This document shows positions 3,425-41,140 of a stretch of 44,067 bases of DNA, one piece after another (the stretch's first letter is position 1; every line of letters starts with the position of its first letter). Source of the DNA: a virus; IMG/VR virus record IMGVR_UViG_3300025030_002857, positions 1-44,067 of that record. The stretch is one strand, 5' to 3'. The notes beneath the pieces were generated by a model, which saw only the letters and a list, made by a program, of their open reading frames with translations, had not been told where the DNA came from and did no database searches. The translations under genes were made by a program, and so were the position numbers.

Positions 3425-4051
3425 TCAGGGCGTGGTCATATTAAGTCCGGTGGTTAAAAGAAGATCAATCATCTGCTCTATCTCTAAATTCTCTTCATCC
3501 CAGACTACATCATAGGCAAAGCGTAATTTGCCATCGGTATAAGTATTACCTATGGGATTAGTTAAATTCAGCGTAAAAGGAGATTGGCATCCGGAGACTG
3601 CGGCTATTTTGTTTATCTCACCTGTACTATCATTGGGAGTGCTTATATGGAGGACATGGCCCTCCCGTACCCGGGTCTCTGTCGTCAATCCTACAACTGC
3701 GGTCACAGTTATATTGGTAGCCCCAGCATTGCCAGTAATAATGTCAATATCGGGAATAGGAAAACCATAGATAAACCAGAATGCCTTCTCTTGGCCCCGA
3801 TGACGCTTATAGAATTCCCATATCTCACTCCATTCACCTTCTTGGGGAAAATTCTCTACTGGCAGACGGTTGGTTAATTGCCAGTTAAAACGATACCGTG
3901 GATAGGCCCACTGCCCTACACGTTGTATGCGTGTCCCACCGGCAAACTCGATAATGCTGACCGGGAACTCCATCTCATATTCAATGGTTCCCATCTGCGG
4001 AAAGACAGCCAGCAATTCTTTATTAAAATAACTATAAACCGCATTAACCAT
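3425..4051 (-). CDS. Distal tail protein, DUF2460-like
   Basis: The protein has 208 residues. The N-terminal half carries the sequence GGTRIQRVGQWAYPRYRFNW and then SEIWEFYKRHRGQEKAFWF, which resembles DUF2460/lambda gpM-like distal tail proteins (a pattern of Q/E-R-x-x-x-W-x-x-P-R followed by a FxxRxG segment). The C-terminal half contains a GATNITVTAVVGLTTE module that recurs in the 578-residue protein at 4871-6607. Position directly before the DUF2163 hub supports a role joining tail tube to tip. It overlaps the small zinc-ribbon ORF upstream by 8 bases. The family call is by pattern and neighbourhood. Confidence 0.65.
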   Translation of the reverse strand: MVNAVYSYFNKELLAVFPQMGTIEYEMEFPVSIIEFAGGTRIQRVGQWAYPRYRFNWQLTNRLPVENFPQEGEWSEIWEFYKRHRGQEKAFWFIYGFPIPDIDIITGNAGATNITVTAVVGLTTETRVREGHVLHISTPNDSTGEINKIAAVSGCQSPFTLNLTNPIGNTYTDGKLRFAYDVVWDEENLEIEQMIDLLLTTGLNMTTP

Positions 4052-4286
4052 TTAATATCTCTATAAATTCAATCCTGATTCTCTTATTATCATATAATTT
4101 AAGCTTGCTTATATCATAATGCTCTAGCCATATCTGCCCCAGATGGGCCATTACCCGGCCAGTAAAGATAGGAGATGATTTTCCCCAGACCCACTGGCAT
4201 TGTGGACAAAAGGAATTCTCACAAGGATCTTCTTTACTCAATAAAGTTCTACAGATGGGGCAGAGTCTCTGCCAAAACATTTTCAT
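4044..4286 (-). CDS. Small zinc-ribbon protein in tail operon
   Basis: About 80 residues, with CPIC near the N-terminus and a second CPQC knuckle 15 residues later, separated by another Cys (DPCENSF). This is a typical zinc-ribbon arrangement. The remainder (IWLEHYDISKLKLYDNKRIRIEFIEI-like) has no recognised domain. Its first codons overlap the 3' end of the HNH endonuclease gene by 38 bases, so the endonuclease may have inserted directly in front of or into it. An internal ATG at codon 3 is an alternative start. Function unknown; a tail assembly or metal-binding accessory is possible. Confidence 0.55.
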   Translation of the reverse strand: MKMFWQRLCPICRTLLSKEDPCENSFCPQCQWVWGKSSPIFTGRVMAHLGQIWLEHYDISKLKLYDNKRIRIEFIEILNG

Positions 4287-4839
4287 GCTGTATAGCTATC
4301 CAGCCTTTAACTTTATGTTTTCTTCGTATTGCTTCATTAACAGCATTTCTACTCAATTTCAATCCTCGACTTGCTGCTAATCCACTATCAAATTCCATGA
4401 TAACGTTATTTTTTATTAATATTACTCGTTTACTAAAGAGATTGTTTATTTTCATATGTAATGCACCATGGAACTTTTGAAGCAAGATCTCTAAATTATC
4501 AGGGTCATCGTTTTGATTATTTCTATCTTTATGATGAACGATATAACCTTTTGGAATTTCAGCACCATTTAAATAATAATTCTGATAAACAACATGAGAC
4601 CAAAGTGTTTTTCCCCCATCACGATTCCGTACTCGCCATCTACCATCTTTCATTTGTGTAAATCCATAATTCCATTTTCTATTTTTATAATCAGAAAAAA
4701 CATGTCCTCTAATATATCTAGCTGGATGTCCTTTAATATAACCTCTTCGGTTTTTATGCGTGTTCTTGATGATAGAAGTAAATTGACTGCAACCACATTC
4801 ACATAATTGTGTTGATTTAACTTGTTCTCTTTTTTTCAT
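4249..4839 (-). CDS. HNH homing endonuclease with NUMOD-like C-terminus
   Basis: This 196-residue protein has an N-terminal CECGC knuckle, a central HNH signature (VHHKDRNNQNDDPDNLEIL, the H-H-x-D-x-N-x-x-N-D-x-x-x-N-L form) and a C-terminal helix-turn-helix segment (SGLAASRGLKLSRNAVNEAI) resembling NUMOD1. Such free-standing enzymes cut DNA and spread themselves between phage genes. The gene is visibly more A+T rich than the tail genes on both sides. It lies between two distal-tail paralogues and overlaps the zinc-ribbon ORF. No clear Shine-Dalgarno is seen. I read it as a mobile insertion rather than a tail component. Confidence 0.85.
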   Translation of the reverse strand: MKKREQVKSTQLCECGCSQFTSIIKNTHKNRRGYIKGHPARYIRGHVFSDYKNRKWNYGFTQMKDGRWRVRNRDGGKTLWSHVVYQNYYLNGAEIPKGYIVHHKDRNNQNDDPDNLEILLQKFHGALHMKINNLFSKRVILIKNNVIMEFDSGLAASRGLKLSRNAVNEAIRRKHKVKGWIAIQHENVLAETLPHL

Positions 4840-20979: not shown

Positions 20980-23900
20980 TTAGCTTTTCTCAAATTGCCA
21001 GAAAACCCCAGTATCTTCTTGTTTTCCTAACCATTTTCCCTTCAATCTTTTGCCTTCAAAATTCAATTCTCTTTGATTATTTTCTTCTGCAATAACTACT
21101 TTACCAGCATCAGCCTGTTCAATAAAAGCAGGGATCGTTTTGTTGGGATTTCCGAATTTCCCTGCCGGTATCTTCCCTTCCCAGGTAAACCAGGCAACAA
21201 TATCTTTTTTATTAAAAGGCGGTTTCTGTAATTTATTTAAGCGCGCCGATAAAGGCCCATCAATCTCCAATGGATTAAACTCGAATTGATATTCCTCTAA
21301 ATATTTATTGCTATCTGATTCCATAATCAAATCCCAATGTTCAATCGGCAAATCCCGCACCACCGTATTATGCACTGGACCAAGAGCCGACAAGAAAGAT
21401 CGTGCCGAAGTCCACCGACTCTTAACTTCTAAAGATATGAAAGAACGAAACTCATGATGTATAGTAATTTTTTTTATAGGCGTATAAACAAAAAAGGTCT
21501 GCCCAATTTCTATAGCCGTCTTAATCAATTGCTGGCTATATTTTTCCTGCGTCATATCAGGGTTACAAGCTGATAAATGCTTATAAAGAATAAATGAAGG
21601 TGCTCGAAAACCACAATCTGAACAAATAAATACCGGAATCTTTAATTTATCACCTTGCTTCAAGGCATCAGCCCTAACCCATCCTTCATATAAATCATCT
21701 GCTGATCGAATCCATATCGGAGTATTCTCTGTTATCGCCTTAGTCCATTGTCCTGATTTCCAGTTTTCTTTCTGAGGATCATAGATCGTCAAGCCATAAA
21801 CGATCTTTAAATATCGAGGAAAGACTATGCGGTGTGCCTTAATAATCTCTAGAGGTTTGAGATCAGAAGCAAGAATAAAATTTCTATCCTTCAACTCACC
21901 GGCCTTAATCAGACCCATTGGTGCCGCAATCTCCAAGCTTGGATCCACACATTGCCCTTTGTAGTAATGCCTGTTCAAAACAAATCTTCTAGTCTTTCCA
22001 GCTCTTAAATCAATACTATCCGGTCTTAATAATGCCTTTCCAGTATCCTTTACCAATCCCGCTTCTTGAATCTCGGATTGAATAGTTCTGCTCAAGATAT
22101 CAGCATTATGCCGTAAATATTCTTGAAAGCTTGTGCTATCCAGGGTATTAATAGTGAATTGTAAAGAAACTTTTTGTTTCTTTGCTTTTGCTTTCTCCTT
22201 CAGATAGGCATAGGCATCATCCATATGGTTTAACATTTCAGCACGAGACAAATCCTTTCCCCACCAGCGCATCTCTTCTGGGACCTTCTCTTCCCACCAA
22301 GGTGGGAGTCCAGAAATGATCTCTTTTCCATCCGGTACCCAATCCCTTTTCTTTCTCCCCCGGGTGGTCAGGATATAAGGGGTATCAGTTTTTGCAATGA
22401 ATCCAGCCCAGAAGGTAGGAGTTTTTAATGGCGTCCTCATCTTCTTCGGCTCTTCTGGGGTGGCTATTTGTCTGAAGACCAATCGCTTCCGATAATAAAT
22501 CTCTTTTGGTCCTTTCATATCAAGAAAATACTCTTCGAAATATGGCCTTCGGATACCGGGATAAGCGAAGCCTACAGCCCGGGTAATAAAGACACCCTCT
22601 TCGAATCGTGTATTATGGGAGATACCCAGAGGCGTTAGATAATTCTCATGTTTTTTGATACTTAGATTATATGTTGTAGCTACTCCATCAAATTCTCTAA
22701 TCATAATAGGATGCAATAGCCAATACTTATTTCGTGATGATTTCCAGCCCCATTGTCGAAATTGTTTTATAATAGTCCTCTTTAATCCCTGTATCGGAAT
22801 AGTCATATAAATATAAGGATGTTCATACCAATCTCCATCCTTATCCTTCTTTTGGCCATCCTCTTTTAATGCCTCCAGAAAAATATCTTTTGTTAATTCC
22901 CATCCTATTTTTGCTATGTCACTGATCAGATCACTTTTATCAATATGGGCACAATACCATAGATGATCATAGGTAGCGCCTACATAGAATTCCCCAACCT
23001 TAATCTCATATTTCTGCTTGGGATCAGCCGGATTCTCAAAGACCTCCTGTACCCGATCCCATTGCATAATCATCAATCCATTCTCTGCTTTTGCCCGTAC
23101 CGAGACCTTATGACCCCGTGAGATGCCCCTGATATTCTGCCACCCCCGGGCCATTAAAACATCTACTTCAGTCAGGCAGGCTCCAGTAGAACCAGGCTCA
23201 ACAACATTCTCTCTGGCAACATTGATCCAGATTTGCGGTTGGGATGCCTTCCTCTCAACTAAAACCTTTTTATTAGGATCCATGTCAGGTCCGAATTTCC
23301 ATTCTGTTTGATCGGTTATCTTCCGACCCTGTTCAATGGTATTTATATCCTCTTTGATAATCCCAGCCGGTTGATCATCAATAGTCCATCCCCTCAAGTG
23401 GGAATTAAATTTTACACGAAAGTCGAGGTGAGCTGAGGCCCCACGAAAATGCTCTGACATGATAGCATAATGCTGCGGATATTTATTAGGAGCAACTTTC
23501 AGCTTCCAATTCAGCCATTTGTCAGGATTAACCTTTGCCAGTGCTGAAATATCTTCTTCAGCCTTTTTTATCTGCTGGGAAGAGGCCTTAATAATCCTTT
23601 CTGCATCGATATAGATATCGGGTTCTGTCCGTTCGGTATCAATTTCTTCTAAACGTGGGTTTTCCCAGGCGATCCCCTGGGTCCCATCTGGCCTCTTAAA
23701 GAAACGCATCGTGGTAGGCCTAATTGTAGCAATATCCCCAATCCTGGGGGCCGGATCCAGTTTCTTAGCATAGGTTTTACCATATGCTATTTCTGATTTC
23801 CCCCGATTTTTAAACCCAGCCCCCATCTGCCAGATATGCGGATCTTCGGTTCCTGACCAGACTTTGCGTTTAGCATCCCATCTCAATTCCAAATCGCCTT

Positions 23901-24633
23901 GCGATAATCGATGATCGCTTTCTATAGCTATCAGAGTCTTTCCATCTTTTCCTAAAATAGCCCCCCAAAGAATATAGGTCTCGGATTTCTTTTGCAGTTT
24001 TTTAAAGGCATCTAGAGCTTCCTGGCCAGTCAGATCCCCATCTGGTTTTTCAGGCCATGGATTAGGCTCAATTAGAATGCCTATAGTTTTTATTTTAAGC
24101 TCATAAGTTATCTTGACTTTAACCCACCCAGGTCCCCGACCAATTTCATAAAGACTTTCCAATTCTTTCCCCATAAAACCCTCGCTCGCCGGGAAAGCAA
24201 TCGCCTTCTTTACTGCCGCATCATATTCTTTCTTATTGGATACTTCCCAGGATGGCATACGCTTGATATATTTCAAGTCTTTAGGCAGGATCTTATCGAG
24301 GATTTTTAGACGTTCGGAAAGCGGCTTTTGAGATATATCCTCTTCATGATAAGGGATATCGAAGACATAATACCAGGTCTCTTCATCTCTAATAGGTTCT
24401 TTACCCACCCCTACTTTGGCCATCTCGGCCCGAGGAATAAGCTGCCCATCCTTGATCAGAATTAATTCTCCATCAAGGATAAAATTATCATGACGAAGCG
24501 ATTGAATTTCTCTCACCAAATCAGGCAGAATGGTACTACGTTCTTTGCCGCCATCAGTATAGACTTTTACTCCATCATTTTTATGAATTTGGATCCTAAA
24601 TCCATTTATTTTCGCAGAGATTTCAACAGCCAT
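20980..24633 (-). CDS. ATP-dependent DNA ligase with LigD 3'-phosphoesterase-like domains, carrying two inteins
   Basis: This is a 1217-residue precursor, about 833 residues after removal of the inteins at 486-674 and 895-1089. Residues 1-310 are a ligase core: motif I KINGFR (K8, with Asn in place of the usual Asp), ILDGELI, YYVFDIP, EGFMGKEL and GWVKVK, so the key residues are present although the usual N-terminal DNA-binding domain is missing. Residues 370-480 contain SEHFRGASAHLDFRV and GWTIDDQP, like LigD phosphoesterase domains. A second such domain is rebuilt by splicing, RFVLNRHYYKGQ joined to TVVRDLPIEHWDL. Residues 823-855 copy the tape-measure C-terminus. A TAA stop lies two codons upstream, so ATG 24633 is the first start. 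Probable role: end-healing and joining of DNA. Confidence 0.85.
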   Translation of the reverse strand: MAVEISAKINGFRIQIHKNDGVKVYTDGGKERSTILPDLVREIQSLRHDNFILDGELILIKDGQLIPRAEMAKVGVGKEPIRDEETWYYVFDIPYHEEDISQKPLSERLKILDKILPKDLKYIKRMPSWEVSNKKEYDAAVKKAIAFPASEGFMGKELESLYEIGRGPGWVKVKITYELKIKTIGILIEPNPWPEKPDGDLTGQEALDAFKKLQKKSETYILWGAILGKDGKTLIAIESDHRLSQGDLELRWDAKRKVWSGTEDPHIWQMGAGFKNRGKSEIAYGKTYAKKLDPAPRIGDIATIRPTTMRFFKRPDGTQGIAWENPRLEEIDTERTEPDIYIDAERIIKASSQQIKKAEEDISALAKVNPDKWLNWKLKVAPNKYPQHYAIMSEHFRGASAHLDFRVKFNSHLRGWTIDDQPAGIIKEDINTIEQGRKITDQTEWKFGPDMDPNKKVLVERKASQPQIWINVARENVVEPGSTGACLTEVDVLMARGWQNIRGISRGHKVSVRAKAENGLMIMQWDRVQEVFENPADPKQKYEIKVGEFYVGATYDHLWYCAHIDKSDLISDIAKIGWELTKDIFLEALKEDGQKKDKDGDWYEHPYIYMTIPIQGLKRTIIKQFRQWGWKSSRNKYWLLHPIMIREFDGVATTYNLSIKKHENYLTPLGISHNTRFEEGVFITRAVGFAYPGIRRPYFEEYFLDMKGPKEIYYRKRLVFRQIATPEEPKKMRTPLKTPTFWAGFIAKTDTPYILTTRGRKKRDWVPDGKEIISGLPPWWEEKVPEEMRWWGKDLSRAEMLNHMDDAYAYLKEKAKAKKQKVSLQFTINTLDSTSFQEYLRHNADILSRTIQSEIQEAGLVKDTGKALLRPDSIDLRAGKTRRFVLNRHYYKGQCVDPSLEIAAPMGLIKAGELKDRNFILASDLKPLEIIKAHRIVFPRYLKIVYGLTIYDPQKENWKSGQWTKAITENTPIWIRSADDLYEGWVRADALKQGDKLKIPVFICSDCGFRAPSFILYKHLSACNPDMTQEKYSQQLIKTAIEIGQTFFVYTPIKKITIHHEFRSFISLEVKSRWTSARSFLSALGPVHNTVVRDLPIEHWDLIMESDSNKYLEEYQFEFNPLEIDGPLSARLNKLQKPPFNKKDIVAWFTWEGKIPAGKFGNPNKTIPAFIEQADAGKVVIAEENNQRELNFEGKRLKGKWLGKQEDTGVFWQFEKS
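21367..21951 (-). other. Intein 2 of the ligase (residues 895-1089)
   Basis: Starts at Cys895 (CVDPSLEIAAPMGL) and ends GPVHN at 1089, followed by Thr1090 as +1 residue. Block B appears as TENTPIWI, in which the usual His is Thr. The 195-residue element contains a zinc-ribbon-like CSDC...H...C insert (residues 1004-1023) but no HNH or LAGLIDADG endonuclease. Its removal joins HYYKGQ to TVVRDLPIEHWDL and restores a phosphoesterase-type motif. Boundary residues and the restored extein support the call. Confidence 0.75.
22069..22167 (-). repeat. Copy of tape-measure C-terminal segment inside the ligase
   Basis: The 99 bases coding VSLQFTINTLDSTSFQEYL... differ from bases 7618-7716 at 22 positions (77/99 identical) and encode a closely similar peptide in the same frame (SLQFxINTLDxxxFxEYLRxNADILS). 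It is the only such similarity I noticed between distant genes of the window. Confidence 0.85.
22612..23178 (-). other. Intein 1 of the ligase (residues 486-674), mini-intein
   Basis: Begins at Cys486 (CLTEVDVLMARGWQNI), has a block B TYDH at 554-557, and ends with the typical YNLSIKKHENYLTPLGISHN before Thr675. At 189 residues and without an HNH or LAGLIDADG motif, it is a mini-intein. Splicing joins VVEPGSTGA to TRFEEGVFI, giving a continuous domain. Confidence 0.88.
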
Positions 24634-29938: not shown

Positions 29939-30469
29939 TCAACTCCCCAATAACCATCGGTTAAAGGCTGCTTTTATACAATGGCCAATAATTAAATGCA
30001 TATCCTCATTAATTCCATCATTATCCGATTGTATAGGAATAATAAGCTGATATTGAGATTGAGGTGGAGGATTAATTCCTGTTAGCAATATAGCTCTGGG
30101 ATAATCAGCAGCAATAGCTAGAATAGTTGGCGAACGGCCTGAAGAGCTAAATGCAATAAGCAATTCTTTTCCTATTCGTCGTTTTCGCTTGAAAGCACTG
30201 GAATAGCCATAATCATTTGCTCGTGCTGTTAAAAATGCAGGACTGAATATTTTTGTTTGAAATCCTAGAGATTCTAAATCAATAGCCCAATGCTCTGCAG
30301 TACAATATGAGCCACCATTGCCACAAAAAGTTATAGGCCATTTGTGTACATAAGCTTCCTGGAGATCAGAAATAAGCTCTGTAAATAGATATTCAGCATT
30401 GTGGGGCAAATAATCTATTAATTGATTTAAATAGCTTGATATTTCCAATCCTGGTAAATCAATTAACAT
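29939..30469 (-). CDS. gmhA: GmhA-like sedoheptulose-7-phosphate isomerase (SIS domain)
   Basis: ATG 30469 is preceded by AAAGG; a TTG at 30478 would add three residues. The 176-residue product has the SIS signature FCGNGGSYCTAEHWAIDL (compare GmhA's GNGGSA-x-x-A-Q-H) and IAFSSSGRSP near residue 112. It would make D-glycero-D-manno-heptose 7-phosphate from sedoheptulose 7-phosphate. It overlaps the radical SAM stop by 11 bases and is followed by the HddA-like kinase. It lacks the usual Zn-binding details I could verify, so the substrate is a family-based inference. Confidence 0.75.
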   Translation of the reverse strand: MLIDLPGLEISSYLNQLIDYLPHNAEYLFTELISDLQEAYVHKWPITFCGNGGSYCTAEHWAIDLESLGFQTKIFSPAFLTARANDYGYSSAFKRKRRIGKELLIAFSSSGRSPTILAIAADYPRAILLTGINPPPQSQYQLIIPIQSDNDGINEDMHLIIGHCIKAAFNRWLLGS

Positions 30470-32420
30470 TGGCTGCAATCCTTTGCTGGATCTTTTTCAA
30501 GAACTCATAATCAATATTCTTAATTTTTTGGCAACAGGGTGAATAGGCACTCCAATTTTCATTCAGGATTAAGCCATTCTCTTTACAATAATCATAAAGC
30601 TTAGAGCCAGGGAAAAGAGTATAGATAGATGGGGATAGTCGCTCGGGTTTAATCTCTTCGATAAACTGCGCGGTTTCTAATGCCTCGGCATGAGTCTCAG
30701 TAGGCAGCCCGAGAATGAAATTGCAAAAAATCTTTACTTTATTTTCTCGTAATATGGCAACGGCTTCTCGGGTTATTTCTTTTGTAGTCTCTTTCTTAAT
30801 AAATTCTAATACCCTATTGCTTCCTGATTCCACGCCAAGCGAGACCCAGATCAATCCGATCTTTGCCAGACCAGCTATTAACTCTTTTCGTTCAACAATT
30901 ATTCTGGGATGGATCTGCATAAAAAAAGGAGCCGAGCCGAAAACAGCGCCAAACTGCTCGATAAACTCTTCTATCCAGGAGGGCTTGGCAACTAAATCAT
31001 CATGGAACATAATCGAATTAAAAGAAGATTGATCTCGTAATTGTTTTAATTCTGCCATAACATTTTCTACAGAGCGCATACGTGGAGGTCCATTTATTCG
31101 CCTTCGATCTGAGCAGAATTTGCAGTTATGCACTAAGACATCATTGGCATAAAACCAATCAAATTCAGGTACTTCAAGACAATAAACATCTTCTTTCTTA
31201 GATAATTTTATTACTTCACTCACTTTGTGATTTATTCCTTCGGAATAAAATGTTGATACTCGTGATTTTTCTCCTATATATTTTCCATCTTTATAATTTG
31301 GATTTTTTTCTCCTTGTTTTGACAAAGAATATCGGATACGTTGTTCAAAGGTTCTTTTTTTCCCAGTTATTGCCTGACGTATTTTTTCACGTGATTCTGA
31401 AGTGCAATATTTTGAAGGATTATTTGTTCTCATCCGTTCCTTAATTTCTGGATGAAAAATAAAATGATCCTTTTGATTTCTTACATATATCAAATTTTTG
31501 ATTGAATTATCTTTTTTACATCTATTATCATGATGAACCAGTTCACTTCGTTTTAAAGGCCGTCCTAATTCATATTCTATTTTTAACCTCGATAGTCTTT
31601 TTTTTAATTTTCGCCTCCAGGTAATAATAGGATAACCATATGCATCTATATATTCATGAATTGCCCGCACGCGCATTCCTGGTTTCAAATGGTCTGCCCG
31701 AATTTCTTCTTCTCTTTCTCCGATAAATTGATTACCCCATTTAAATATTTTGAAGAGATGGTCCGATGTACAATCAATGAATGATCCATTATCAAACTTT
31801 ACTCGTATCAATTCTGCATTTGTTCGTGTCTTTGCTACCATCCTCGGTTTAACAAATAATATTCGATCATTCTGTGAATCAAGCGTCATAACAGGATAAG
31901 GATCAGTCATTTTAGCTAGGTCCTTAATGGGAATTTTGCCATTTATAGTATTAACTGCTGTATCACCTGCCAAACAATGAAAAGAGCATCCCCTTCCCAA
32001 GATCATAGTCAAAACCGGCGATTTTAATTCTGGAAATAAAGGAAAATTCATTTCTTCTATCCCAAAAATATTCCGGTCAATAAAAGGCAACCTATCTAAC
32101 CCTACTAGACGACAATTTGCACCAGAATCAGGACCTATACCATCCGGGCCATATTCTATGAAGGTTGGTAATAGATATTCCCCTTCACCTCGAATGACCA
32201 TATCTGCCCCAGTCTCTTCTTCTATCATCTCACTTAAAGAGGCATGGGCACCTCCCACGATAATCTTCGCATTCGGTTTATTTTTTCTCAAAATCTCTAT
32301 GGCCCTCTGCCCATGCAGATAATCTGTAGATAAATACGAGAAACACCAAAAATCTGCATCAACGGATTGGCAGATCTGATCCCATGTATGCCAAGAAGCC
32401 AGTTTTCTGAAATCAAACAA
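30459..32420 (-). CDS. B12-binding radical SAM enzyme interrupted by an intein; N-terminus frameshifted
   Basis: The open frame begins at TTG 32420 because the first part of the B12-binding domain lies in another frame upstream. Residues 20-90 are the remaining Rossmann half (AKIIVGGAHAS, MVIRGEGEYLLP). The radical SAM core starts at GRGCSFHC (C145, C149), where an intein (residues 149-432) sits; after splicing, C-x3-C-x2-C (CSFHCKFC) is rebuilt. SLGVESGSNRVLEFIKKET and FCNFILGLPTET are typical later segments. Such enzymes do methylations or rearrangements on lipids, sugars or antibiotics; the substrate here is unknown, but the neighbouring genes suggest a glycan or its precursor. Confidence 0.85.
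   Translation of the reverse strand: MFDFRKLASWHTWDQICQSVDADFWCFSYLSTDYLHGQRAIEILRKNKPNAKIIVGGAHASLSEMIEEETGADMVIRGEGEYLLPTFIEYGPDGIGPDSGANCRLVGLDRLPFIDRNIFGIEEMNFPLFPELKSPVLTMILGRGCSFHCLAGDTAVNTINGKIPIKDLAKMTDPYPVMTLDSQNDRILFVKPRMVAKTRTNAELIRVKFDNGSFIDCTSDHLFKIFKWGNQFIGEREEEIRADHLKPGMRVRAIHEYIDAYGYPIITWRRKLKKRLSRLKIEYELGRPLKRSELVHHDNRCKKDNSIKNLIYVRNQKDHFIFHPEIKERMRTNNPSKYCTSESREKIRQAITGKKRTFEQRIRYSLSKQGEKNPNYKDGKYIGEKSRVSTFYSEGINHKVSEVIKLSKKEDVYCLEVPEFDWFYANDVLVHNCKFCSDRRRINGPPRMRSVENVMAELKQLRDQSSFNSIMFHDDLVAKPSWIEEFIEQFGAVFGSAPFFMQIHPRIIVERKELIAGLAKIGLIWVSLGVESGSNRVLEFIKKETTKEITREAVAILRENKVKIFCNFILGLPTETHAEALETAQFIEEIKPERLSPSIYTLFPGSKLYDYCKENGLILNENWSAYSPCCQKIKNIDYEFLKKIQQRIAANVN
31125..31976 (-). 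other. Intein with HNH homing endonuclease in the radical SAM gene
   Basis: The 284-residue element starts Cys149 (CLAGDTAVNTINGKIPIKD), has a block B SDHLFK near residue 217-222, and ends NDVLVHN before Cys. Between them lie an HNH motif (LVHHDNRCKKDNSIKNLIYV) and NUMOD3-like repeats (KIRQAITGKK; KQGEKNPNYKDGKY), so it is a full homing intein. The DNA is A+T rich. It is placed between the first and second Cys of the Fe-S motif. Confidence 0.93.
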
Positions 32421-32560
32421 CTGACCTGATGGCCATCCTCTTTAAGTATGGTAATCAGCATAGCTACTCCATGGCTGATCAAGGTCCCTTCAAAGCCCCG
32501 ATTGAAGCTATTGAATCCCGGGACTTGAATATTCACATAGGCAAAAATTATCCTGGCCAT
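32421..32560 (-). pseudogene. Frame-displaced N-terminus of the radical SAM B12-binding domain
   Basis: ATG 32560 codes for MARIIFAYVNIQVPGFNSF..., then LKEDGHQV, a classic start of a cobalamin-binding domain (hydrophobic strand, then L-x-x-x-GH-x-V). At about 32421 the reading frame has to shift by one base to continue as LFDFRKLASW in the gene at 30459-32420. Without the shift, the frame runs on to 32297 into unrelated sequence. No slippery heptamer is seen. A one-base deletion, or a sequencing error, best explains this. Confidence 0.7.
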
Positions 32561-36529: not shown

Positions 36530-37399
36530 CTATTTAAAACGAGATTTTTGGTGAATAAGTGCGGTCTGACAAGTTGAGCAAATAGGTAAATCTCTTTTTT
36601 GCCGTGTCAGATGCGCCTGCCGGAATCGCTGAAAGGCTTCTCCCTGCCAAATCTCTAATAAAGTCGATTCCTTCAGATTCCCCATCTTCAACTTTCCCTC
36701 CCAATCGATACAGCAAGGAACCACATCCAGATTAGTCAATACAATAGCATTCTCCAGGACATAATCGCAAGGACGATCATCTGGCTCTGAATAAGCCCGT
36801 TCTTTTAAAGGCCAGCCCCGGCCATCACACCATTGGAAATATACCTGGCAATTGCCTTTCTCAGTCCAATAGGCTTTAAAATCCTCCACTTCCTTTTCAT
36901 TCTCTTCCATAACCGTAAAAACAATCCCAATCGGAAACTTTCTCTTTTTTGATATCTTCCAAAAATGATCTATCCCGCTCAAAACCCGAGTTAGATTAAG
37001 TCCCGGTCGTATTCTCTGATATACTTGAGGCCTCATAGAATCCAGGGAAAACCAGACATGATGCGGTTCTAATTGCAAGATCCGCTCAGCCAGAATCTCA
37101 TCCATAGTAGAGCCATTGGTCACAATACCGATTTTATTTGGCCCCAAAACATCCCGGGCAGCGCTAGCAAAATAGAAGAAGTAATTGGGATAAAGCAGAG
37201 GTTCATTATAGTTATGGAATTCTATATATTCCAGGTCCGGCCAATATCTAAGACTCTTAATCAGTTCTATCGCACTCTCATAATCAATCCTGGGAGCTCT
37301 CAAATCTTCAATTACAGACTGGGGACAATGGCGGCACTGCCCATTGCACTCGGTACTGATCTCTATGCTTATATGTTTTAAGGGAAAATCTACCGTCAT
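36530..37399 (-). CDS. Radical SAM / SPASM enzyme
   Basis: The 289-residue protein has the radical SAM cluster motif CNGQCRHC (C18, C22, C25), the GIVTNGST segment and a C-terminal SPASM-like Cys set (RPCDYVL, VVPCCIDW, MGNL then CSTC). Such proteins modify peptides or sugar-bound substrates using auxiliary clusters. The gene is between glycosyltransferases, so a role in glycan tailoring is possible but not shown. Confidence 0.85.
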   Translation of the reverse strand: MTVDFPLKHISIEISTECNGQCRHCPQSVIEDLRAPRIDYESAIELIKSLRYWPDLEYIEFHNYNEPLLYPNYFFYFASAARDVLGPNKIGIVTNGSTMDEILAERILQLEPHHVWFSLDSMRPQVYQRIRPGLNLTRVLSGIDHFWKISKKRKFPIGIVFTVMEENEKEVEDFKAYWTEKGNCQVYFQWCDGRGWPLKERAYSEPDDRPCDYVLENAIVLTNLDVVPCCIDWEGKLKMGNLKESTLLEIWQGEAFQRFRQAHLTRQKRDLPICSTCQTALIHQKSRFK

Positions 37400-39955: not shown

Positions 39956-40936
39956 TTATCTGGCGGAGGAATTGCCCGTCCTCCAACTATTAAAGGTTAG
40001 AAACTTGACTTCTGACAGCTTAGCGTTCTGGCACAATCGCTTACCATCTATTAGCGAATGTAGACTGATACGATCCTTTAGCCAGCCACCGACATAACTC
40101 AGACCCCATACTGGGTGCTTAACCAGGCTACCACGCTTAAACCCTAAGCTCTGTGTGCCACCATAAACACGCCTTATGCCTCCTTTAGCAGGTTGTAGGG
40201 CATGAAGCTGCCTGCGGTGAAAACGCAGGGGAATCAAGCCAAGAACTTGCTTATTATCTGGCATGTTGCCTTGGGTTTGGGAATAAGCCAGACACCAGGC
40301 ATCTACCCAATGATCCTTCTTGAGTCCCAAAGCTTCTCGTATGGCTTTAGTCTCATAGCCCTGCAAAGTTATTAATTGGCCTAGCTTTTGTATCTCTTTA
40401 TAAAAAAATCTCTTACCGACTTCCAGAGGTGAAAAAGACCTATTCCATCTGCCTTTGCCTTTCTTTGTCCGTGCTCTTATATCCTCTACCACAAAATGGC
40501 TTATGGGATATAGCTTCTTTAGCCACCAGCATATCCGTAACTTCCACTGCCAGCGTGCCCTGGTACTGGGTGGCAGGCCGCCTATCCTGCGGTTACTTCG
40601 ATTAGCCCGGCAAGGTGTATTCCGGCTCCGTCTCGCTCTGCGCATCTGCCGCCGCTGCTTGACATGATCCTTCACCCAGGTTACGGCATCGGCCTCGATA
40701 TTCAGATAAGTATGGGCGTTGGACTTAACTGATAAGCCCTCTTTCTTACTACCAGGATCAATGTCCACCACTACATCCTGTACATGTCTGGCAGAGGGTT
40801 CTACGTTAAGTCTCACACAAAATACTCCTCGCTTCCAAAATGGTGTTGCCTTGCCTGACTCTATCCACTTCCTGGCTTTCTTTGGTCTAGTAGGCATCAA
40901 GGGTACTTGGTTCTTATCTACTACCGGTACAAACAT
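39956..40936 (-). CDS. isrB: IsrB, RNA-guided RuvC nickase (IscB relative lacking HNH)
   Basis: The start is set at ATG 40936 (GGAG 8 bases upstream; a longer frame to 40972 covers omega RNA). The 326-residue protein has the PLMP motif (VPLMPTRPKKARKWI), RuvC-I IDPGSKKEGL, an Arg-rich bridge helix (RRQMRRARRSRNTP), RuvC-II VVEDIRA and RuvC-III KKDHWVDAWCLA, with all acidic catalytic residues intact. Only about 57 residues separate RuvC-II and RuvC-III, with no HNH motif, which separates IsrB from IscB. In this family an upstream omega RNA guides nicking of the non-target strand. Presence in a phage structural/glycan region is unusual. Confidence 0.9.
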   Translation of the reverse strand: MFVPVVDKNQVPLMPTRPKKARKWIESGKATPFWKRGVFCVRLNVEPSARHVQDVVVDIDPGSKKEGLSVKSNAHTYLNIEADAVTWVKDHVKQRRQMRRARRSRNTPCRANRSNRRIGGLPPSTRARWQWKLRICWWLKKLYPISHFVVEDIRARTKKGKGRWNRSFSPLEVGKRFFYKEIQKLGQLITLQGYETKAIREALGLKKDHWVDAWCLAYSQTQGNMPDNKQVLGLIPLRFHRRQLHALQPAKGGIRRVYGGTQSLGFKRGSLVKHPVWGLSYVGGWLKDRISLHSLIDGKRLCQNAKLSEVKFLTFNSWRTGNSSAR

Positions 40937-41140
40937 GAGATTACTCCCCTTGTATTTACTGCCCTTCGCCACTGGCCTGCATAGCGGGTAGGGATTAGGG
41001 CGGCGTTCCTACCGTATCTCAGGCTGCCACGCCCAGCAAGCTCAGTTACTATCCGGCTAGTCAACTGCTTTTAATCCTGCTCAGGCTGGTTGGCTTCCAG
41101 CCTTTCGCAAGCCGTCTGCTTTAGCTGACGGTAGTTGACG
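40937..41140 (-). ncRNA. Omega RNA (HEARO) of IsrB
   Basis: Directly upstream of isrB, the minus strand has a structured G+C-rich region: the hairpin with CTAAAG (41112-41131), GCTTGCGAAAGGC, paired CCAACCAGCCTGAGCAGG, a later stem-loop set (TGAGCTTGCTGGGCG; TACGGTAGGAACGCCGCCC) and ACCCGCTATGCAGGC. This is the layout of HEARO/omega RNAs. The bases just upstream (41141-41156, GGTGATTGCTGATCTA) would act as the guide and are part of the kinase coding sequence. The first part of the RNA is read as the kinase's last 18 or so residues. Confidence 0.8.

Follow-up and report, generated by a model that had tools for sequence, protein, structure and literature searches.

An HNH-family intein at the second cysteine of the radical SAM CxxxCxxC motif in viral genes

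Comparison of one viral intein with its relatives makes it highly probable that a mobile class-1-type intein of the HNH family is targeted to the stretch of phage radical SAM genes that encodes the CxxxCxxC motif. The intein was found in a window (the whole stretch of DNA analyzed here) that consists of the 44,067 bases of the IMG/VR virus record IMGVR_UViG_3300025030_002857. According to its annotation, the window contains a capsid gene, minor tail and baseplate-type genes, and an amidase gene. It also contains a long run of glycosyltransferase, methyltransferase, GHMP sugar-kinase, SIS-domain protein, and HAD phosphatase genes with three radical SAM genes. One of these three carries the intein, and the radical SAM motif of the gene at 36530-37399 is uninterrupted. 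No RNA introns or tRNAs were found in the window. In two relatives described below (L004 and L005), the intein-bearing radical SAM gene lies within a cluster of transketolase-like and aminotransferase-like genes, to which L005 adds a GHMP-kinase-like gene and a nucleotidyltransferase-like gene; this setting resembles the place of the window gene among sugar genes.

The open reading frame (ORF) that holds the intein (30459..32420, minus strand; 653 amino acids when read from TTG) encodes a B12-binding radical SAM protein, with matches to the Pfam models Radical_SAM (6.3e-18), B12-binding (1.8e-8), and Intein_splicing (6.8e-12) that are all above the curated cut-offs. Pfam, the alignment of relatives, and an AlphaFold2 model delimit an intein of 284 amino acids (ORF residues 149-432), from C1 (CLAGDT...) to N284 (...ANDVLVHN), at 31125..31976 on the minus strand, exactly where the initial annotation had placed it. 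It is preceded by the N-extein end MILGRGCSFH (31977..32006, minus strand), in which the first cluster cysteine is at position -4, and followed by the C-extein start CKFCSDRR (31101..31124, minus strand), in which the +1 and +4 residues are the second and third cluster cysteines; the reading frame is continuous across both junctions. As read from these flanks, the intein splits CSFH/CKFC ahead of the second [4Fe-4S] cysteine, which would double as the +1 nucleophile. On joining, the exteins give CSFHCKFC, and together with the radical SAM and B12-binding domains this identifies the host product as a B12-binding radical SAM protein. The proposal of an intein inside the CxxxCxxC motif is upheld by the flanks, Pfam, NCBIfam, and the Hint-fold model. 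The further suggestion that the precursor has an incomplete iron-sulfur site agrees with cluster cysteines that lie 284 residues apart; such a precursor would presumably be unable to hold the cluster.

The sequence confirms the insert as a class-1-type intein (C1...HN/C+1), for which splicing is predicted. It has C1, T70xxH73, H283-N284, and C+1, and it scores 40.2 bits with the NCBIfam intein_Nterm model (cut-off, 24.5). C1, T70, H73, Cys266, and N284 are invariant in all 21 aligned members, and two intein cysteines, Cys69 and Cys266, are invariant across the family. The AlphaFold2 model, built on 21 aligned relatives (pLDDT 87), has a Hint fold that resembles the DnaB, RecA, and NrdJ inteins (Z about 20; for 1mi8, Z 20.3 and rmsd 1.6 over 135 residues). 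Splicing would thus be of the ordinary class-1 type, with the second cluster cysteine as the +1 nucleophile. The penultimate residue is His in the window copy; 16 of the 24 members described below are without this usual residue and have either Lys (12 members: L007, L008, L009, L011, L013, L018, L020, L021, L024, L025, L062, and L100) or Arg, Ala, or Ser (four members).

Both endonuclease elements named in the initial annotation were recovered between the splicing halves. An HNH_3 region (VHHDN...KDN...KNL...KDH) spans intein residues 130-169 (31470..31589, minus strand), and a NUMOD3-like stretch spans residues 192-207 (31356..31403, minus strand). In the window copy by itself, neither match reaches its threshold (E 0.0095 and 0.056, respectively); across members, HNH_3 is matched in 18 of 21 (best 3e-9) and NUMOD3 in 6 of 21. 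All 18 full-length members retain the histidine pair of the HNH motif and the asparagine of NL. Three members (L024, L025, and L062) have lost the endonuclease and retained the splicing residues. In L110, Cys1 of the same-site intein (3998-4756) is replaced by Pro (CCA) and Thr70 by Ser, and the frame of this intein is still open; it is probably splice-dead, judging from these substitutions.

Upstream of about position 32420, the N-terminal part of the window's radical SAM gene is in another frame (32297..32560, minus strand), and the B12-binding domain is split between the two frames. The B12-binding model covered positions 9-119 when both frames were read as one (with X at the join), versus 49-119 for the ORF alone. 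Because of this frame break, the window copy could be either a pseudogene or misassembled. It could be argued from the break near 32420 that the insert is decaying and no longer splices, and that the radical SAM gene of this phage is dead. We regard this as unlikely, since the intein and the C-terminal part of the radical SAM protein form an unbroken frame of 653 codons in which no splicing or HNH residue is missing, and since a single-base assembly error is an equally likely cause of such a break in a metagenomic contig.

A search with the intein alone retrieved two copies at the same site, and a search with an alignment retrieved some twenty others; L100 and L110 came from a third scan. When near-identical records are taken once, 24 distinct same-site inteins are known, including that of the window: 22 others are viral, all from uncultured viral contigs, and one (L085) is on a 7.6-kb contig of a gammaproteobacterial metagenome-assembled genome (MAG). 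The latter is the sole same-site copy found among 84,980 cellular genomes scanned with two patterns; the patterns included IDCT[SP]DH, so that copies lacking this cysteine could have escaped the scan. No radical SAM gene with this intein was found in plasmids, nor in 50,697 cultured phage records when the window protein, L008, and L011 served as tblastn queries. Every close relative has the arrangement C-x-x-x/intein/C-x-x-C and resides in a radical SAM protein. None of the distant relatives does; these are inteins of ribonucleotide reductase (RNR), terminase, RtcB, and other proteins, which match at 23-40% identity and often over partial length.

For uninterrupted sites, we searched viral contigs with an alignment of the joined flanks from four members of an HpnJ-like host family. 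Among the 80 viral loci retrieved, the motif is uninterrupted in 78 (for example, YTSLGCPFKCSFCCIN), one locus is filled (L008), and one is unreadable; because the ranking favors empty genes, these counts do not translate into a frequency of empty sites. The closest empty relative, L157, is 83% identical to the L008 host protein. The comparison with intein-free homologues that the initial annotation had called for is therefore available for the HpnJ-like family, whereas the extein search found no relative of the window's own host protein in the viral contigs. The junction in the window thus rests on the radical SAM motif itself and on sister families.

The inteins are more alike than the proteins that carry them. 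Mean identity is 47% among inteins and 25% among host proteins; between the window and the other members, the respective ranges are 37-49% and 16-25%. The phylogenies conflict as well. The L004 host protein falls in the HpnJ-like clade of the host tree (support 100/99), a grouping rejected by the intein data in the AU test (p-AU 1.6e-77). Conversely, the host data reject two groupings that the inteins suggest, L013 with the HpnJ-like clade (p 0.006) and L004 with L010 (p 0.0004); the direction of these tests is clear, and the exact p-values need care, given the long branches of the host tree and given that the identities were already known when some of the groups were chosen. At a shorter time scale, three closely related phages have a full-length intein (L011) or an endonuclease-less mini-intein (L024 and L025) at the site. 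The first 224 nucleotides of the intein are 98-99% identical between L011 and the other two, versus 81-83% for the flanks, and the 100 nucleotides directly upstream of the intein are 95% identical, as expected from co-conversion. Both the conflict between trees and an intein identity above that of the flanks support lateral transfer. Given the shared site, the 78 uninterrupted motifs, the difference in mean identity, and the tree conflict, it looks like one intein family has spread among different radical SAM enzymes via their conserved motif.

At the DNA level, third codon positions of the target are largely unconstrained; GGA is mildly preferred at the Gly codon (A in 13 of 24) and TTC at positions +7 to +9 (C in 20 of 24), and we do not claim strong conservation of the target beyond its codons. 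The G+C content of the intein in the window is 0.32 versus 0.41 for the window, and in the family it is mostly near or somewhat below that of the respective contig (contigs range from 0.27 to 0.65). A recent foreign origin, considered on grounds of base composition, was set aside because intein G+C mostly tracks the contig; the intein family is probably old in these genomes.

The following course of events is proposed. (i) The gene would be translated as a single precursor, in which Cys1 would attack the bond between His-1 and Cys1, and Cys+1 would then take over the N-extein. Asn284 would cyclize and the exteins would join, restoring CSFHCKFC, after which the [4Fe-4S] cluster could be built; these steps are suggested by the conservation of the catalytic residues and by what is known of intein chemistry. 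(ii) Where a co-infecting phage or a related gene has the motif without an intein, the HNH endonuclease would cut it, and the intein would be copied in during repair. This homing proposal is supported by the presence and absence of the intein at one site, by the conflict between intein and host trees, and by inteins that are more alike than their flanks. (iii) The intein may have moved between different radical SAM families, since the target motif is common to many radical SAM enzymes. As far as the sequences tell, filled, empty, endonuclease-less, and broken alleles occur at one site, as a homing cycle would predict. Target conservation and the need for exact excision explain the position in the motif without a regulatory role.

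The initial annotation had gone further, suggesting that splicing at a metal-binding site might couple enzyme maturation to redox or metal status. Splicing would then be gated by a metal on the precursor cysteines or by a disulfide that links Cys1 to Cys-4 or to Cys+1, and the oxygen-sensitive enzyme would mature only under reducing conditions. Such a switch is possible, and it is not needed to explain the occurrence of the family; we consider it decidedly unlikely. Cys-4, Cys1, and Cys+1 are present in nearly all members, but Cys-4 and Cys+1 are fixed by the host motif and are present in empty homologues as well. Because the enzyme requires both cysteines regardless of the intein, they provide no evidence of selection for a switch, and no other residue, the invariant intein cysteines Cys69 and Cys266 included, points to one. 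There is a precedent in another radical SAM enzyme, the MoaA of Pyrococcus abyssi, whose intein is reported to be trapped, when oxidized, by a disulfide between Cys-3 and Cys1 (Callahan et al. 2011, cited in PMC10663303 and PMC3922620). In the present family, however, the N-extein cysteine is at -4 in all 24 members, and position -3, which the known trap uses, is Ser, Pro, or Lys. The AlphaFold2 model resembles the redox-trap structure of DnaE (3nzm; Z 17), yet 3nzm scores no better than other inteins, and the match therefore reflects the shared fold only. Finally, the distribution is phage-borne, sporadic, and host-hopping, and a selfish element that homes into a conserved active-site motif would account for it with no switch involved. 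A more comprehensive reading combines codons of the motif as a universal address across non-orthologous phage radical SAM enzymes with splicing that depends on the redox or iron state of the infected cell, the +1 nucleophile being a cluster ligand and cluster building strictly following splicing; this joint claim, in all its parts together, seems to us very unlikely. There is next to no chance that the insert is a fixed domain of the enzyme rather than an intein, since its presence at the same site in 24 distinct proteins is outweighed by intein signatures at both ends, the Hint fold, and the uninterrupted homologues in the sister HpnJ-like family, which contradict the fixed insert that the initial annotation had named as grounds for refutation.

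The window has several further features of note. An ORF with a DNA ligase domain (20980-24633, minus strand) has two intein-like inserts, at 22612-23178 (189 amino acids; ends C...SHN/T) and at 21367-21951 (195 amino acids; ends C...VHN/T), neither of which is matched by a Pfam intein model. A relative, L006, appears to be without an insert at both places (GSVGATRYE and KGQKVIRD) and has an intein-like insert elsewhere. The protein encoded at 39956-40972 (minus strand) has a strong RRXRR domain (1.8e-35), an N-terminal part known from IscB/IsrB-like proteins, and no HNH domain was matched in it. Between tail genes, a free-standing HNH_3 endonuclease gene (4249-4839, minus strand) may be a separate homing element.

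Among named families, the Rv2578c radical SAM family (NCBIfam NF038136) also has an intein within CxxxCxxC. It matches P0001 across the intein (profile positions 67-335, E 1.1e-6) at 27.9 bits, far from the full-family cut-off of 700 bits. In intein-free members of NF038136, profile position 335, the start of the C-extein, falls on the third cysteine, from which we infer an intein site three residues further on (CxxxCxx/C). The present family is thus inserted before the second cysteine and NF038136 apparently before the third, a difference drawn from the profile and not from an intein sequence. No intein-bearing Rv2578c genes above the cut-off were found in 400 genomes of one phylum, nor did we find literature that joins Rv2578c with an intein. 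Compared by description, the MoaA intein shares with the present family an oxygen-sensitive radical SAM host and an N-extein cysteine close to Cys1, and it differs in that this cysteine is at -3 and not -4, in being archaeal and cellular, and in having a reported redox trap; it is probably located at the third-cysteine site as well. MoaA is the one radical SAM enzyme for which redox-gated splicing is reported in the parts of the literature covered (PMC10663303 and PMC3922620).

Of the named intein families, the one that scores best is the RtcB family (NF052663, RtcB_rel_intein2; E 9.5e-24 with P0001), which has a different host protein and a cut-off of 1050 bits that P0001 does not reach. The +1 Cys of the RtcB intein is a metal ligand too. 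The RNR and terminase inteins of mycobacteriophages and other phages are likewise phage-borne, many of them with endonucleases, and occupy conserved sites of phage enzymes (PMC5050341). The present family differs from these in that it occupies one motif in several distinct enzyme families. To our knowledge, the phage RNR and terminase inteins reside in orthologous hosts as a rule. No description of the second-cysteine site was found in the covered parts of the literature on inteins and radical SAM enzymes or in the searched records. The family is tied to a short catalytic motif of a very large enzyme superfamily and not to one orthologous gene, so that the homing cycle and the rules by which inteins choose their targets can be put to the test. 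It also supplies numerous natural precursors whose +1 nucleophile is an iron-sulfur ligand, well suited to asking whether redox-gated splicing is general or incidental. Set against the known inteins, its chemistry is ordinary, its site is apparently undescribed, and its choice of host enzymes appears unusually wide.
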